From: Cytophagales bacterium
Lineage (GTDB): Bacteria; Bacteroidota; Bacteroidia; Cytophagales; Cyclobacteriaceae
DNA: 64,000 nucleotides
Reading direction: 5' to 3'
Assembly: GCA_022360055.1 (NCBI GenBank)
Contig: JAKSDO010000021.1
Location: forward strand, 1-64,000
The notes under the pieces were generated by a model that saw only the letters and a program-made list of their open reading frames with translations, did no database searches and had not been told where the DNA came from. This document shows positions 6,966-13,501 of the stretch, one piece after another (within the stretch, counting starts at the first letter, position 1; each line of letters opens with the position of its first letter). The translations under genes and the position numbers were made by a program.

Positions 6966-7763
6966 TTAGCTGCCCATCAGGTACTGAAGCCAATAGTTTA
7001 CCTCTTGAATATGCTGTAGGTAATTTGTGATTGATTCGGGTAAACCCTCCTTTTTCTCAAGTTTGGATACAAATTTCTCCACATCTGCAATCGATGCAAA
7101 CACCCCATCATTTATAAGAATTTCTGACATGTATCTGGCAATAAATATCATATCCGAAATTTTAAATTCCGGATGATATTGCACCCCAAAGAATTCCGAA
7201 TTTTTATTTTTTATGGTTAAAGCCTGAACTTTTGAATGACTATTTCCCGCCAATATGGTTGAGTTTTCCGGTAGATCTACGACCTCATCCATATGAATGC
7301 AAAGCGCACTGTACGGCTTGTTTCTCCCTTGAAGATAAGGGGTCCTTTTCCCCGCTTCAGTTAATTCAACAGGGGCACTAATTCCAAATTCTCTCCCTTT
7401 CGGGCAAGCGCTTACCTTTCCGCCGGCAACAACTACGGCAAGCTGTAACCCCCAGCAACTGCCATAAAAGGGCACACCGCTCACGAACACGTCTTCCGTG
7501 AAGGTAAGTTGTTGTTGAACGCATGAAACCGGATCATTTACATATAGCGAACTCCCCGTCCACAATATCCCGTCAAACTTTCTAAGGGATTTGACCGAAG
7601 GCAACACGGCATCATCGTCTGCCGGAAATGCAACCTCCAAATGCGCATCAGGTCGTAGTAATTTCAGCATAGTCATAAACCGCTTATGATATGGAACGCC
7701 TCCATATTTTTCTCGCTTTTGCCAGATTTCCCGGCTATTACCTTCGACGATCAGCAGATGCAT
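6966..7763 (-). CDS. Class I glutamine amidotransferase-like hydrolase (putative gamma-glutamylglycine hydrolase)
   Basis: A 265-residue single-domain class I amidotransferase. The nucleophile is the Cys of GSCWGLQ and the catalytic His-Glu pair is in VQYHPE. There is no synthetase domain, so it acts alone as a gamma-glutamyl hydrolase, as IpuF- and PuuD-type enzymes do. It is the last gene of a five-gene operon and starts 8 bases after the alcohol dehydrogenase stop. The order fits hydrolysis of gamma-glutamylglycine to glutamate and glycine as the final step. The fold is certain; the substrate is inferred from neighbours. Confidence 0.72.
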   Translation of the reverse strand: MHLLIVEGNSREIWQKREKYGGVPYHKRFMTMLKLLRPDAHLEVAFPADDDAVLPSVKSLRKFDGILWTGSSLYVNDPVSCVQQQLTFTEDVFVSGVPFYGSCWGLQLAVVVAGGKVSACPKGREFGISAPVELTEAGKRTPYLQGRNKPYSALCIHMDEVVDLPENSTILAGNSHSKVQALTIKNKNSEFFGVQYHPEFKISDMIFIARYMSEILINDGVFASIADVEKFVSKLEKKEGLPESITNYLQHIQEVNYWLQYLMGS

Positions 7764-7771
7764 ATACCCGA

Positions 7772-8941
7772 CTAAAGCATGTCTAAGTTACCTTTGAGTG
7801 CAGCCATAAATAATTCTTGTAAATCCGCAGCGCTTACAGGTTTGGCATTCGTAGGGGTTGAAGGGTCATGAAACGCCATTGCACCTATTTTCTCAGCATG
7901 CTCATCGTCAATCCCGACTTCATTTAGGCTGTACGGGATTTTGAGTTGCTCCCTTAAGTTTATGATCAGATTGATGATTGCATTTGCGCCGGCATCATTA
8001 AGTTCCAATACTTTACTCAGATGAATCATTTTTTCTTCAATCGCGGATGCGTTTTGCTTTAATCCGTATGGTAGCAATATAGAATTTGCCAGGCCATGTT
8101 GAATATTATAAAGAGCACCTAATTGATGAGCTACAGAGTGAATGGAACCTAATCCTTTTTGAAAAGCCACGGCGGCCATCGAAGAAGCGGTTAACATTTG
8201 CCCTCTCGCTTCCAGATCAGATCCGTCATAAAAAGCAATTGGCAGATTTTTCAAAATCATTCTGATTGCCTCAATGGCAATTCCATCGGCCATAGGATGG
8301 TACCCCGGTGCGCAATAAGCTTCCGTAGCATGAACCAATGCATCAATTCCTGTCCAGGCAGTGATGTTCGGTGGTAATCCTACAGTTAATTCCGGATCTT
8401 CCAGTATAATCGATGGCAGCATTTTAGGATGGAATATGATTTTTTTACTGCGTTGATTTTCATCTAATATTACTGCCGCCCGTCCTACCTCCGACCCGGT
8501 GCCGGCCGTAGTGGGAATTGCAATGACAGGAGCAATTCCGTTGACATCCGCATGCGTCCAGTTATCCCCAATATCTTCGAAATCCCATAATGAATGCTTT
8601 TGACCTGACATAAAGGCAATAGATTTTGCAGCATCCAATGCAGAGCCCCCGCCAAAAGCAATCACACCATCGTGATTGTTCTCTTGATAAAATGAAACCC
8701 CCTCTGTTACGTTTCTCCCGGTCGGATTGCCCTGAACATTACTGAAAATATCGAATTTTGTATTGCCGGATCTCAATAAATCTGTCGTCGCAGTTGTAAT
8801 GTCCAAATTGATTAAATCTTCATCGGTCACAAAAAGCGGATGCCGCATTCCCAGCTCCGCGCAAGCCTTTGTGAGTTCATTTATTCGCCCATTTCCAAAC
8901 CAAATTGTAGTTGGAAAATGCCAGTTTGTTTTTTGTGGCAT
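7772..8941 (-). CDS. Iron-containing alcohol dehydrogenase
   Basis: A 389-residue type III (iron) alcohol dehydrogenase. FGGGSALDAAKSIAFM binds the NAD phosphates. GTGSEVG and GIDALVHATEAYC are family blocks, and metal-ligand histidines lie in IHSVAHQLG and IQHGLANS. Classical gamma-glutamyl polyamine pathways do not need an alcohol dehydrogenase, whereas a substrate with a primary hydroxyl does. In this operon it would oxidise gamma-glutamylethanolamide to the aldehyde. It lies between the aldehyde dehydrogenase (15-base gap) and the amidotransferase (8-base gap). Confidence 0.85.
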   Translation of the reverse strand: MPQKTNWHFPTTIWFGNGRINELTKACAELGMRHPLFVTDEDLINLDITTATTDLLRSGNTKFDIFSNVQGNPTGRNVTEGVSFYQENNHDGVIAFGGGSALDAAKSIAFMSGQKHSLWDFEDIGDNWTHADVNGIAPVIAIPTTAGTGSEVGRAAVILDENQRSKKIIFHPKMLPSIILEDPELTVGLPPNITAWTGIDALVHATEAYCAPGYHPMADGIAIEAIRMILKNLPIAFYDGSDLEARGQMLTASSMAAVAFQKGLGSIHSVAHQLGALYNIQHGLANSILLPYGLKQNASAIEEKMIHLSKVLELNDAGANAIINLIINLREQLKIPYSLNEVGIDDEHAEKIGAMAFHDPSTPTNAKPVSAADLQELFMAALKGNLDML

Positions 8942-8956
8942 AATGTATTACTCTGA

Positions 8957-10345
8957 TTATTTCTTTATTCGAAGGTGATATGATTTTGCATGAGTGACAT
9001 GTTGATATCCCAATCCTGAAAGTGTGATACCTCTTCCGGTATTTTTCACACCGGTCCACGCAAGCGCAGGATCCAAATAATCACAACGATTCATGAATAA
9101 TGTTCCGGTTTCAATTTGCTTTCCAAGATCACGGGCAATGGTTTTATCTTCCGTCCATAAAGAAGCGGTAAGTCCGTATTTTGAGTCATTCATCAATTTT
9201 ATAGCTTCAGCATCGGAATCTACCTGCATAATGCCGACCACCGGCCCAAAGCTTTCTTCAGTCATTACCTCCATTTTGTGGTCAACATTTATCAATACTT
9301 GTGGAGCGAGGTAGGCCGTACCCTCCTCCGACGCCTTAAAATGCGACTCGTCAATAAGCGCCTTGCCGCCTTGCCGAACAGCATTGTTAATCTGCTTGCG
9401 AACATAATCTGCAGCGATTGTTTTTACCATTGGCCCCAGGCTGGTTTCAGGATCGATCGGATTTCCCAATACATATTTCCTGGTCAGATCGACAAAACCG
9501 TCAACAAATTGCCTGTATATTTTCTTGTGCACATAAATACGTTCTATGCCACAACAAGACTGACCACTGTTAAAAAAGGAACCATCAACCAGGTTGTTTA
9601 TTGAAAACTCCAGGTTAGCATCTTCCCGCACATATGCCGGATCCTTGCCTCCCAGCTCAAGTCCGCATGAAACAAATTTATCTGTCAATGATTTTTGAAT
9701 GGCCACACCTCCTTCAACGGAACCGGTAAAAAAAACACCATTTACATCAGGATCTCTGATTAACAAGGAAGTATTTTGATGATTTAAATGTAATATTTGA
9801 AAAACTCCTTCTGGTAAACCTGCTGTACCGGCTGCTTTGCGATAGCGTTCTGCAACCAGTGGTGTTTGGGTTGAATGCTTCAAAATGACTGAATTCCCGG
9901 CTACCAGTGCAGGAACGATCGCATTTACGGAAGTCAAATATGGATAATTCCACGGACTCAAAACAGCGATAACACCAAGTGGAACATGTTCTATCCACCG
10001 CTCGAATCCATCCTTTTCCTCTGGTTTGTATGCATCTAGCGCACTCTCGGCGATGCGCAGCATATATCGAGCCCGCTCCTCAAAACCATTGATTTCTCCG
10101 GGGGTTTGACTAAGCGGCCTTCCCATTTGCCAGGTGATCTCCTCAGCAATATCATCCTTATCATCAACGATGGCATCTACAAATCTTGAAACATACTTTA
10201 TCCGCTCTGACAATGACATGGATGACCAGGAAGATTGTGCTTTATGAGCTAATTTTACCGTATGTTCGACATCTTTGCGGTCGTTCCGGGTATAGGAATA
10301 ATAATGAGACCCATCAATTGGAGTTATGATCCGAATATCAGACAT
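8957..10345 (-). CDS. NAD(P)-dependent aldehyde dehydrogenase
   Basis: A 462-residue ALDH-superfamily enzyme. The general-base Glu lies in GLELGGKDPAYV and the catalytic Cys in FFNSGQSCCGIERI; LSPWNYPYLTSVNAIVPALVAGN is the N-terminal cofactor region and EESFGPVVGI the C-terminal family block. In this operon it should oxidise the gamma-glutamyl aldehyde to the acid, the counterpart of PuuC in putrescine use. It starts 9 bases after the ligase stop. Family certain, substrate inferred. Confidence 0.85.
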   Translation of the reverse strand: MSDIRIITPIDGSHYYSYTRNDRKDVEHTVKLAHKAQSSWSSMSLSERIKYVSRFVDAIVDDKDDIAEEITWQMGRPLSQTPGEINGFEERARYMLRIAESALDAYKPEEKDGFERWIEHVPLGVIAVLSPWNYPYLTSVNAIVPALVAGNSVILKHSTQTPLVAERYRKAAGTAGLPEGVFQILHLNHQNTSLLIRDPDVNGVFFTGSVEGGVAIQKSLTDKFVSCGLELGGKDPAYVREDANLEFSINNLVDGSFFNSGQSCCGIERIYVHKKIYRQFVDGFVDLTRKYVLGNPIDPETSLGPMVKTIAADYVRKQINNAVRQGGKALIDESHFKASEEGTAYLAPQVLINVDHKMEVMTEESFGPVVGIMQVDSDAEAIKLMNDSKYGLTASLWTEDKTIARDLGKQIETGTLFMNRCDYLDPALAWTGVKNTGRGITLSGLGYQHVTHAKSYHLRIKK

Positions 10346-10354
10346 ACTATTCTT

Positions 10355-11710
10355 TTAAATGATTTCGAAATATCTTTCTATTTGCCAATCTGTGATTGCC
10401 TTTCTTTGTTGCTGATCTTCCCACTCCCTGGTATATGCGTAATGATCTACAAATTGCGCTCCAAACAATTCTTTGGCAGGAATTGACGACCTCAGGCGGG
10501 ATGCCGATTCCGTCAGTGTAGCGGGCAGCTTTAATTTTTTGGGGTATTGCTTTACATATGCATTCCCGGAGACAGGCCGATCGGGTTCGATTTTGTTTTC
10601 GATGCCCCATAATCCTGAACCGATGGCTGCGGCAAATGCTAAATACGGGTTAATATCTGCAGCACAAATACGGTACTCAATGCGTTGTGATTTTGAGCTT
10701 CCTGGAATTACCCGTATTGCGCAAGTGCGATTGTCTATTCCCCATGATGCCGCTGTCGGCGCCCAAAATCCGGGAATGAGTCTTGTATAACTGTTGCACG
10801 ATGAAGCTACCATTGATAGAAACTCCGGCATAAGCTGCTGTTGACCGCCGATAAACCATCGCATGGTATCAGAGATGTTTTGATCGTTATCTTTATTGTA
10901 AAAGGCTGCAGAGCCATCTCCATTTTGCAAAGATATGTGCAGGTGACCGGATTGCCCGGGATAATCCGATGACCATTTTGCCATGAAAGTTGCCATCAGA
11001 TCATTCTGCCGGGCCAGCACTTTCATAAAAGTTTTGAACAATATAGCATCGTCCGCAGCCTTAAGCGCATCGCAATGTTGAAGAGCTGCTTCAAGGACGC
11101 CCGGACCCGTTTCCGTATGCAATCCTTCGATCGGCATGTCCATATCACTGGCCATTTGCATGATTTGATGATATAAATCCGCATGACTTGAGCTCCTCAG
11201 AATGGAATAGCCAAAATTGCCTGGTGTAAACGTATTTAATTTTCGATATCCTTTTTCTTTTATCCCCCTGGGAGTTTCATCAAACAGAAAAAATTCAAAT
11301 TCTGTGGCTGCTGTTGCTGAAAGATTGTGATTGCTTAATCTTTTTAAGACGCTTTTTAATACGGATCGGGGGCAAATCTCACGGGCTTCGTTTTTTGAAA
11401 AATCAGCCAGAAATAAAACCGAAAGATCATTTTCGGTGGGCAATCTGCGACAGCTTTCAGGGTCAAGGTGCGCCCAGGCATCAGGAAAAGCTGTGCGCCA
11501 TCCGGTAAACGAATCTTTGTCGTACAACATATCATTTGAATCCCAACCAAATATAACATCACAAAACCCGAATCCGTTTTCCAATACGGAATTAAGTTTG
11601 TTTTTATGAATGTATTTTCCGCGCATCACCCCGTCACAGTCCGTTACACCGATTTTAATATTTTGTATCTGATGATCTTCAATAAACTGTTTAGCGTTTT
11701 GGATATCCAT
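10355..11710 (-). CDS. Glutamine-synthetase-like gamma-glutamyl-amine ligase
   Basis: A 451-residue GS-fold enzyme in the PuuA/GlnT/gamma-glutamylethanolamide-synthetase branch. Metal-binding blocks are visible: TEFEFFLF, ETGPGVLEAAL, GHLHISL, and EYRICAADINPYL near the active site. The flap that reads GYEAP in true glutamine synthetase, with the Glu that deprotonates ammonium, reads GFWAP here. That argues for an amine substrate. With an ethanolamine-type permease upstream and an alcohol dehydrogenase downstream, the best guess is ATP-dependent ligation of glutamate to ethanolamine. Other small hydroxy-amines remain possible. Confidence 0.78.
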   Translation of the reverse strand: MDIQNAKQFIEDHQIQNIKIGVTDCDGVMRGKYIHKNKLNSVLENGFGFCDVIFGWDSNDMLYDKDSFTGWRTAFPDAWAHLDPESCRRLPTENDLSVLFLADFSKNEAREICPRSVLKSVLKRLSNHNLSATAATEFEFFLFDETPRGIKEKGYRKLNTFTPGNFGYSILRSSSHADLYHQIMQMASDMDMPIEGLHTETGPGVLEAALQHCDALKAADDAILFKTFMKVLARQNDLMATFMAKWSSDYPGQSGHLHISLQNGDGSAAFYNKDNDQNISDTMRWFIGGQQQLMPEFLSMVASSCNSYTRLIPGFWAPTAASWGIDNRTCAIRVIPGSSKSQRIEYRICAADINPYLAFAAAIGSGLWGIENKIEPDRPVSGNAYVKQYPKKLKLPATLTESASRLRSSIPAKELFGAQFVDHYAYTREWEDQQQRKAITDWQIERYFEII

Positions 11711-11827
11711 CTATGTTTCGTTAGTAAAACTTGACTTAATAAATTTCTTTTTGAAATTACATTTAATTCTTATCTGATTTTAACTGTTTTTTGCTTTTAT
11801 AAAATCATGAAACTTTCATTTTATTCA

Positions 11828-13315
11828 TCAATTTCTTCCCTCTTTGCTTATCGCAAATTCTTCTTCCGGAGAAAGTATTAAACGATGCCGGCCTCTTAAT
11901 CCAAAGTATAGCAACCCGACTATTAAATATCCTATTGCGCTAAAGACCGCAATTCGATAGGCTACATCCTGTAATTGATAATAAATTGTAACCAAAGCGA
12001 TTATTATTGTGATCCAGGCACCGGTTTTTCCAAGCGGGCTTATGTACGGCCTCTCTAAATTTGGTCTGTTTATTCGCAATAACAGAAATGACACACTTTG
12101 TAATACGTATGAAAGCATGGCGCTGAAAACGGCCATATTTAACAGAGCGCCTCCTATAAAAATTTCACTTTTCTCGGTTCCGGCCAAAAAACGTGTTAGC
12201 ATCAATACGGCAAATCCAATTGCGGAGCCGGTAATTATGGCGGCATATGGCGTTTTACGCTTGCTCTGCGTGACCGATAGAATTGTAGGAAAATAGCCCG
12301 CTCTTGATAACGAATAGATTTGTCTTCCAAATGCAAAAATAATGGTGTGAAAAGAAGCGATCAATCCGATTACAGCTACCAGTGTCAGTCCTTTTGCAGT
12401 GCCGGAGCCGTACAGTATTTTAAAGCCATCAAGTAATGGCTCACCCGATTGGGACAGCGCGTATGCTCCTAACGGTATGGAAGAATTTAGCCATAATATC
12501 ATGAATGCTGAAATAATCAGTGTAATCATACCGTAAGTCAATCCCTTTGGCATGTCCTTCTTTGGATCAATAGATTCTTCAGCAGCGAGGGGTAACTGCT
12601 CAATGGCTAAGAACAACCAAACTGCAAACGGCAATGCGCCTAACGCTCCCGCGATTCCGTTAGGTAGAAATTTCCCGTGCCCATCAGGCAGTAATTCCAT
12701 AGCACCACGATCATCTACTTTTATATTCAGCGCATTTGTTGTAAAATCAATATGACCGATCGAGGAAATCCAAAAGACGATCAAACAAAATAAAGCAAGT
12801 ATGGTAACTGTTACAGTGAGCCGAAATGTTAGTTCAACGCCAATAATATTAAGGTTGGTAAAAATTACGTAAAAACCAAACCACCAGTATGGAAGGCTTT
12901 CGGGGCCGGTATCGAATATACCACTCATGTAGGTGCTGATAAAAAAAACAATCACTGCCGGTGTCAATACAAATTCCATATTCTCTACCAGGCCTGTAAA
13001 AAAACCGCCCCAGGGTCCCATGGCCGATCGTGCAAAGGAATATGCCCCGCCAGTGTGTGGTAGAGCCGGAGACATTTCAGCAACACATTGCGTGAGCCCG
13101 ATATACATGACAGCAATCACAATAGTGGCTAAAAACATACCTCCCCAACCTCCTGATGCAAGCCCAAGGTTCCACCCTGAAAAATGTCCGGATATTACCG
13201 CACCTACACCAAGAGCCCAAAGTGACCATACACCGGCATGACGTTTCAACTCGCGGGATTCGAAATATGATTTGTCCTTTCTTTTATAGGAGACACCCTT
13301 TGTCAGGTTATTCAT
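11828..13315 (-). CDS. APC-family amine permease, ethanolamine-permease type
   Basis: A 495-residue inner-membrane transporter with about 12 hydrophobic segments. The N-terminal block GVGAVISGHFSGWNLGL, then LPHTGGAYSFARSAMGPWGG and ENMEFVLTPAVIVFFIS, are close to the Eat/ethanolamine permease branch of the amino acid-polyamine-organocation superfamily. It is the first gene of the minus-strand operon (118 bases before the ligase) and would supply the substrate. Codon usage and GC look like its neighbours. Family firm; ethanolamine specificity inferred from sequence motifs and operon partners. Confidence 0.8.
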   Translation of the reverse strand: MNNLTKGVSYKRKDKSYFESRELKRHAGVWSLWALGVGAVISGHFSGWNLGLASGGWGGMFLATIVIAVMYIGLTQCVAEMSPALPHTGGAYSFARSAMGPWGGFFTGLVENMEFVLTPAVIVFFISTYMSGIFDTGPESLPYWWFGFYVIFTNLNIIGVELTFRLTVTVTILALFCLIVFWISSIGHIDFTTNALNIKVDDRGAMELLPDGHGKFLPNGIAGALGALPFAVWLFLAIEQLPLAAEESIDPKKDMPKGLTYGMITLIISAFMILWLNSSIPLGAYALSQSGEPLLDGFKILYGSGTAKGLTLVAVIGLIASFHTIIFAFGRQIYSLSRAGYFPTILSVTQSKRKTPYAAIITGSAIGFAVLMLTRFLAGTEKSEIFIGGALLNMAVFSAMLSYVLQSVSFLLLRINRPNLERPYISPLGKTGAWITIIIALVTIYYQLQDVAYRIAVFSAIGYLIVGLLYFGLRGRHRLILSPEEEFAISKEGRN

Positions 13316-13478: not shown

Positions 13479-13501
13479 TTTCACTTACAGCATAAGTGAA
13501 A
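13479..13501. promoter_or_regulatory. Perfect palindrome TTTCACTTA-N5-TAAGTGAAA
   Basis: Nine-base arms with no mismatch around CAGCA. No T tract follows on either strand, so an operator is more likely than a terminator. It lies 164 bases upstream of the permease start and 463 bases upstream of the TolC start. Its target is unknown. Confidence 0.35.

Follow-up and report, generated by a model that had tools for sequence, protein, structure and literature searches.

The window analyzed here is a 64,000-nucleotide stretch of DNA from a Cytophagales bacterium (contig JAKSDO010000021.1), and the element under study is a five-gene operon on its minus strand at positions 6966-13315. A reading made from the sequence alone had proposed that this operon converts ethanolamine to glycine through gamma-glutamyl intermediates, and the gene content and coordinates that it gave were borne out by a check of the open-reading frames, which confirmed five intact frames in this interval, and by Pfam and NCBIfam matches. 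From the permease to the hydrolase, the genes are as follows:

11828..13315, minus strand: Eat-like permease of the APC superfamily, proposed ethanolamine importer (TIGR00908 is the best NCBIfam match)
10355..11710, minus strand: glutamine synthetase (GS)-like gamma-glutamyl-amine ligase, proposed ethanolamine gamma-glutamylase (gamma-glutamylethanolamide synthetase) (Gln-synt_C, PF00120)
8957..10345, minus strand: aldehyde dehydrogenase (ALDH), proposed gamma-glutamyl-aminoacetaldehyde dehydrogenase yielding gamma-glutamylglycine (PF00171)
7772..8941, minus strand: iron-containing alcohol dehydrogenase (Fe-ADH), proposed gamma-glutamylethanolamide dehydrogenase (PF00465/PF25137)
6966..7763, minus strand: class I glutamine amidotransferase (GATase)/C26-like hydrolase, proposed gamma-glutamylglycine hydrolase replacing N-formylglutamate amidohydrolase (PF00117 and PF07722)

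Catalytic motifs are intact in the GATase (GSCWG, YHPE), the ALDH (LELGG, GQSC), and the Fe-ADH (GIDALVH, HSVAHQLG, QHG). The gaps from ligase to ALDH, Fe-ADH, and GATase are 9, 15, and 8 bp, so that the earlier description of the operon as tightly spaced holds for the last four genes (8-15 bp) but not for the permease, which precedes the ligase by 117 bp. No special RNA fold was found in this 117-bp gap (z = 0.34), and the GC content of the operon, 42.8%, is that of the remaining window. A perfect 9-bp inverted repeat, TTTCACTTA-N5-TAAGTGAAA, is present as a single copy in the window at 13479-13501, some 165-185 bp ahead of the permease start; no operator role is claimed for it, since no counterpart was found before the permease gene in nine relatives from the Bacteroidota.

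Quite likely, the operon serves to take up ethanolamine and turn it into glycine and glutamate by way of gamma-glutamyl intermediates, a route requiring neither a cobalamin enzyme nor a microcompartment. The Eat-like permease would take up ethanolamine, from which the ligase, using ATP and glutamate, would form gamma-glutamylethanolamide. The Fe-ADH would then oxidize the alcohol to the aldehyde, the amine being blocked meanwhile, the ALDH would convert the aldehyde to gamma-glutamylglycine, and the GATase-type hydrolase would free glycine and recycle glutamate, with glycine presumably passing to the glycine cleavage system. For this organism, we infer all substrates and reactions from comparison of sequences.

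By its gene content, the predicted pathway is a variant of the known eto, or gamma-glutamylation, route, with a ligase of a separate clade and with different transporter and hydrolase families. In C. salexigens, this route comprises a PF00120 ligase, a PF00465 iron-dependent dehydrogenase, a PF00171 ALDH, and a PF05013 hydrolase (PMC9397018, Table 2), while in Phaeobacter a single operon of eto content, MED193_10021-10056, is induced by phosphorylethanolamine (PMC10132767, where the work on C. salexigens and A. tumefaciens is credited to Vetting et al.). The alcohol dehydrogenase, regarded in the sequence-only reading as an addition, is accordingly part of the pathway as already known, being present in C. 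salexigens and induced in Phaeobacter. The window operon resembles the eto pathway (C. salexigens Csal_0678 region, A. tumefaciens C58, and Phaeobacter) in its proposed chemistry and in combining PF00120, PF00465, and PF00171 genes, but it has a GATase-type hydrolase instead of PF05013, an Eat-like permease instead of the EtoVWX TRAP transporter, and no adjacent RpiR. GlnA4 of S. coelicolor has been assayed as a gamma-glutamylethanolamide synthetase, and the later steps leading to glycine have been proposed (PMC6529630). The Streptomyces glnA4 cluster (SCO1611-SCO1615) has in common with the window a GS-like ethanolamine ligase, an ALDH, and a glutamine-amidotransferase-type hydrolase, with a permease in some species; the published cluster, however, carries a short-chain dehydrogenase (SDR) where the window has an Fe-ADH. 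The SDR-associated ligases sampled here, GlnA4 itself being compared by description, are 31-36% identical to the window ligase and group with the Csal_0679 type rather than with it. The proposed pathway is very probably correct without being new; the novelty, in Bacteroidota, lies in the ligase lineage and in how the parts are combined.

Conservation of the gene set was assessed in loci picked solely by ligase similarity from named species genomes, with counts based on the 46 loci having at least 5 kb on both sides. These loci span Bacteroidota, Alpha- and Gammaproteobacteria, Campylobacterota, and Verrucomicrobiota. An ALDH was present in 41 of the 46, an Fe-ADH likewise in 41, and both in 37, and because these genes recur so often in loci chosen by the ligase alone, the five-gene set is not a chance grouping. 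The GATase-type hydrolase occurred in 22/46 loci and formylglutamate amidohydrolase in 10/46, with both hydrolases together in a single locus, a near-exclusion with a Fisher p of 0.011 that ignores kinship among the loci. Within the family, a ligase of at least 76% identity was found in three of 196 genomes, the window's own included, and no ligase above 49% was found in any other genome of a sample of 395 from the phylum, showing that the close form is patchy in Bacteroidota.

The window ligase keeps the metal, glutamate, and ATP residues of GS, but its scores fall far short of the equivalog cut-offs for GlnA and for gamma-glutamylputrescine synthetase (NF045547, 203 bits against a cut-off of 650). 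The pocket for the amine is located between subunits. In an alignment that is unreliable for the D50 loop, the flap residue E327 of GS corresponds to W316, and an aromatic residue at this position is also found in PauA7 (W296) and GlnA4 (F331) (PMC6529630). The flap motif RLxPG[FY]WAPT is common to the window ligase, to nearly all of its close relatives, and to the ligases linked to EtoX that are described below, while the corresponding motifs are KRLVEG in a Bacteroidota sister clade, KRTEGG in IpuC, and KRF..GTFAPT in eto ligases. This common motif supports a single predicted specificity across the window clade, without naming the substrate. The eto type was represented in the sequence comparisons by the operons of Ruegeria, Paracoccus, and S. 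meliloti and by the sequence of PDB entry 5dm3, which we take to be Csal_0679. In the ligase tree, the window clade, the sister clade, IpuC, and the clade of Csal_0679 and SDR-type ligases formed separate, strongly supported groups. Identity between the window ligase and the Csal_0679-type or eto ligases is 29-31%, and forcing window-type and eto ligases into a joint clade cost 357 log units and was rejected by the approximately unbiased (AU) test (p = 3.4e-5). One further PF00120 protein is encoded in the genome, by a 742-aa frame at another location.

The dehydrogenases gave a different picture. The window ALDH is 52-53% identical to the ALDHs of eto operons and 54-57% to those of SDR-type clusters, compared with 30-34% for the other ALDHs examined, and its own genome has no second close copy, the next best being 29-32%. 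The window Fe-ADH is 46-47% identical to those of the Ruegeria, Paracoccus, and S. meliloti eto operons. In both trees, the eto copies nest within the window-type clade, beside alphaproteobacterial window-type operons; for the ALDH, a tree placing the window-type copies in a clade of their own, with eto and SDR-type copies both excluded together, was rejected (AU p = 0.0018), and for the Fe-ADH, a separate window-type clade was rejected marginally (p = 0.045). Identity and tree position indicate that the window ALDH and Fe-ADH are orthologous to the eto-operon enzymes. Two ligase lineages appear to feed the same dehydrogenases, because the ligases separate in the AU test while the eto ALDH and Fe-ADH nest in window-type clades. 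In the simplest interpretation, operons of apparently the same function exchanged their ligases and kept their dehydrogenases; the direction of this exchange we infer. The chances are about even that the window ligase represents a second lineage of ethanolamine gamma-glutamylases, separate from that of Csal_0679 and GlnA4, and that the eto operon is the derived form, having had its original, window-type ligase replaced but its ALDH and Fe-ADH retained. The likeness of the window ALDH to those of SDR-type clusters, which combine a short-chain dehydrogenase with the other ligase type, is consistent with one shared aldehyde intermediate.

Since the window and eto ligases share so little identity, orthology of the dehydrogenases alone left the amine of the window ligase undecided, and the genes surrounding other members of its clade bear on this point. 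The eto operon of Ruegeria B32 has the order RpiR, formylglutamate amidohydrolase, TRAP transporter (three genes), ligase, ALDH, and Fe-ADH; that of Paracoccus is the same, and that of S. meliloti differs only in having an APC permease in place of the TRAP genes. The TRAP binding protein of Ruegeria gave one strong PDB match, 4uab (639 bits). This Csal_0678-type protein binds ethanolamine, and EtoX of Phaeobacter binds it with a dissociation constant of 7.9 uM, other compounds tested being unbound (PMC10132767). In three Thalassospira species (L072, L077, and L085), a window-clade ligase stands in a single operon with the order RpiR, TRAP, ligase, ALDH, Fe-ADH, and GATase. The EtoW and EtoX of these operons are 75-76% and 72-74% identical to those of Ruegeria, and both lie directly upstream of the ligase, which in L072 is 61% identical to the window's; EtoX of L072 matches 4uab with 564 bits. 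EtoX is also encoded near the window-clade ligase of Dongia (L081), and other alphaproteobacterial operons of this clade have the RpiR and formylglutamate amidohydrolase families in common with eto operons. The Thalassospira operons close most of the gap as to whether window-clade ligases take the same amine as eto ligases.

The genome carrying the window (7.5 Mb, 98% complete) gave no match to EutB and contains a glycine decarboxylase (GDC-P). Taken with the EtoX-linked relatives and the orthology of the dehydrogenases, this leaves the gamma-glutamyl route without ethanolamine ammonia-lyase, as put forward in the sequence-only reading, the best-fitting interpretation of the operon. The permease is related (41% identity) to Eat of P. 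aeruginosa, which is encoded beside EutBC and EatR; the Eat-EutBC route of that organism differs in using the cobalamin-dependent ammonia-lyase EutBC. The GATase has weak similarity to plant gamma-glutamyl peptidase 1 and has the Cys/His/Glu motifs, and no formylglutamate amidohydrolase of family PF05013 was found in the whole genome. A role for the GATase as gamma-glutamylglycine hydrolase is suggested by its position and its near-exclusion with formylglutamate amidohydrolase, and the weak likeness to gamma-glutamyl peptidase 1 fits this role.

Several results weigh against this interpretation. The permease scored 358.3 bits against the ethanolamine permease model TIGR00908, below the curated cut-off of 381.75; its designation as an ethanolamine-type permease finds support in this best match and in the identity to Eat, but it is weaker evidence than the sequence-only reading had supposed. 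In its favor, it is also 48% identical to an annotated 'ethanolamine permease' of Thermomicrobium roseum (L152), which is itself above the cut-off. The Thalassospira and window GATases are only 39% identical, and no assayed member of the window ligase clade was found in the literature examined. The more distant ligases of Rhodobacteraceae M382 and Pseudorhizobium (48-50% identity) adjoin a polyamine-type ABC transporter, and specificity can therefore drift. The closest relative found, L036 (ligase 78%; 8415-12224), has permease, ligase, and GATase-type hydrolase adjacent; the ALDH and Fe-ADH that would stand between the last two are absent, and nothing close to either was found anywhere in its assembly, owing to a recent loss or else to faulty assembly. 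Judging by its coordinates, L036 probably belongs to the same genus as the genome carrying the window. As a separate observation, L045 has the same trio of permease, ligase, and hydrolase, but a different contig of its genome encodes an ALDH of 58% and an Fe-ADH of 42% identity.

The same chemistry might mainly serve another short amino alcohol, such as 3-aminopropan-1-ol, L-alaninol, 1-amino-2-propanol, or serinol, in a broad or shifted pathway. The enzymes require merely an amine and a primary alcohol, the permease falls under the ethanolamine cut-off, and divergent operons of the same composition in Bacteroidota (L123, L133, and L135; 37-46%) suggest specificity variants. We consider this unlikely, given the EtoX link in Thalassospira and the grouping of the window dehydrogenases with those of eto operons, outside of which the ALDH and Fe-ADH of the divergent operon fall. 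That the closest relative lacks both dehydrogenases could also point to a chance cluster or a decaying operon with no working pathway, an explanation that is hardly credible for five intact frames with intact catalytic motifs and a set conserved across Bacteroidota, Pseudomonadota, Campylobacterota, and Verrucomicrobiota.

Operons for other gamma-glutamylated amines were also considered. The Puu pathway of E. coli (PuuABCD) has the same gamma-glutamylation logic, with an ALDH and a hydrolase of class I amidotransferase fold, the window ligase is homologous to PuuA, and distant members of its clade stand beside spermidine/putrescine-type ABC genes, all of which would suit a Puu/Pau-like operon for putrescine-type polyamines mis-assigned to ethanolamine. 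Puu acts on a diamine, however, and has the amine oxidase PuuB where the window has an alcohol dehydrogenase, which would make no sense for putrescine; the five genes include neither a PuuB-type oxidase nor a PuuE transaminase. The sequence-only reading had itself named an operon found only with polyamine-specific partners as counting against ethanolamine, and window-clade operons were not restricted to such partners, those of the close clade being EtoX and Eat-like and APC permeases. The polyamine explanation is very improbable and was rejected on gene content and on the low score against the putrescine-ligase model. The Ipu pathway, which uses isopropylamine or alaninol, likewise blocks the amine with a gamma-glutamyl group, and IpuC of Paenarthrobacter is 36-39% identical to the window ligase, as close as or closer than Csal_0679. 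IpuC nevertheless forms its own strongly supported branch with a different flap motif, and ipuC clusters carry P450, ferredoxin, and SDR genes, none of which is in the window operon, together with a different ALDH (32%), so that an Ipu-like pathway is equally improbable and was rejected on the tree and the partner genes.

A very common lipid of bacterial membranes carries ethanolamine as its head group. Should the ethanolamine interpretation be true, cobalamin-free use of this compound reaches Bacteroidota, Campylobacterota, and Verrucomicrobiota. Searches with Csal_0679/EtoX or GlnA4 would miss the window ligase clade, and trait surveys based on EtoX (PMC10132767) would therefore underestimate the trait. 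The operon would also provide a clean case in which a substrate-selecting enzyme was exchanged while the downstream enzymes were retained.

A number of further arrangements were seen among the relatives. On a T. roseum plasmid (L152:3758-7509), a compact ligase, SDR, and ethanolamine permease cluster has no adjacent ALDH or hydrolase and constitutes a minimal form in the Chloroflexi lineage, and the 59% permease of Mesorhizobium (L151) had no pathway genes found nearby. Plasmids of Pseudorhizobium flavum and Rhodobacteraceae M382 (L118, L150, and L141) encode the 48-50% ligases with an aminotransferase, the polyamine-type ABC transporter, and an N,N-dimethylformamidase-like gene, while formylglutamate amidohydrolase is beside the ligase in M382 and further along the plasmid in P. 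flavum; these clusters perhaps form a gamma-glutamylation pathway for another amine. The ligase sister clade in Bacteroidota (44-48%; L121, L122, L124-L132, L134, and L136) forms a conserved trio with a protein of about 347 aa and a HAD-family hydrolase of about 282 aa. The former has no Pfam match, contains the motif ISAKVSTNHVYRI, and looks kinase-like by eye, and the trio is often near another glutamine synthetase gene, representing an uncharacterized GS-like pathway common in Bacteroidota. The divergent Bacteroidota operon of the same five functions (30-46% identity) is located at L123:6610-12539, L133:6802-12725, and L135:4930-10911, and in L123 a single frame of 699 aa covers both the C26 hydrolase and the ALDH, apparently a fusion of the enzymes for two successive steps.

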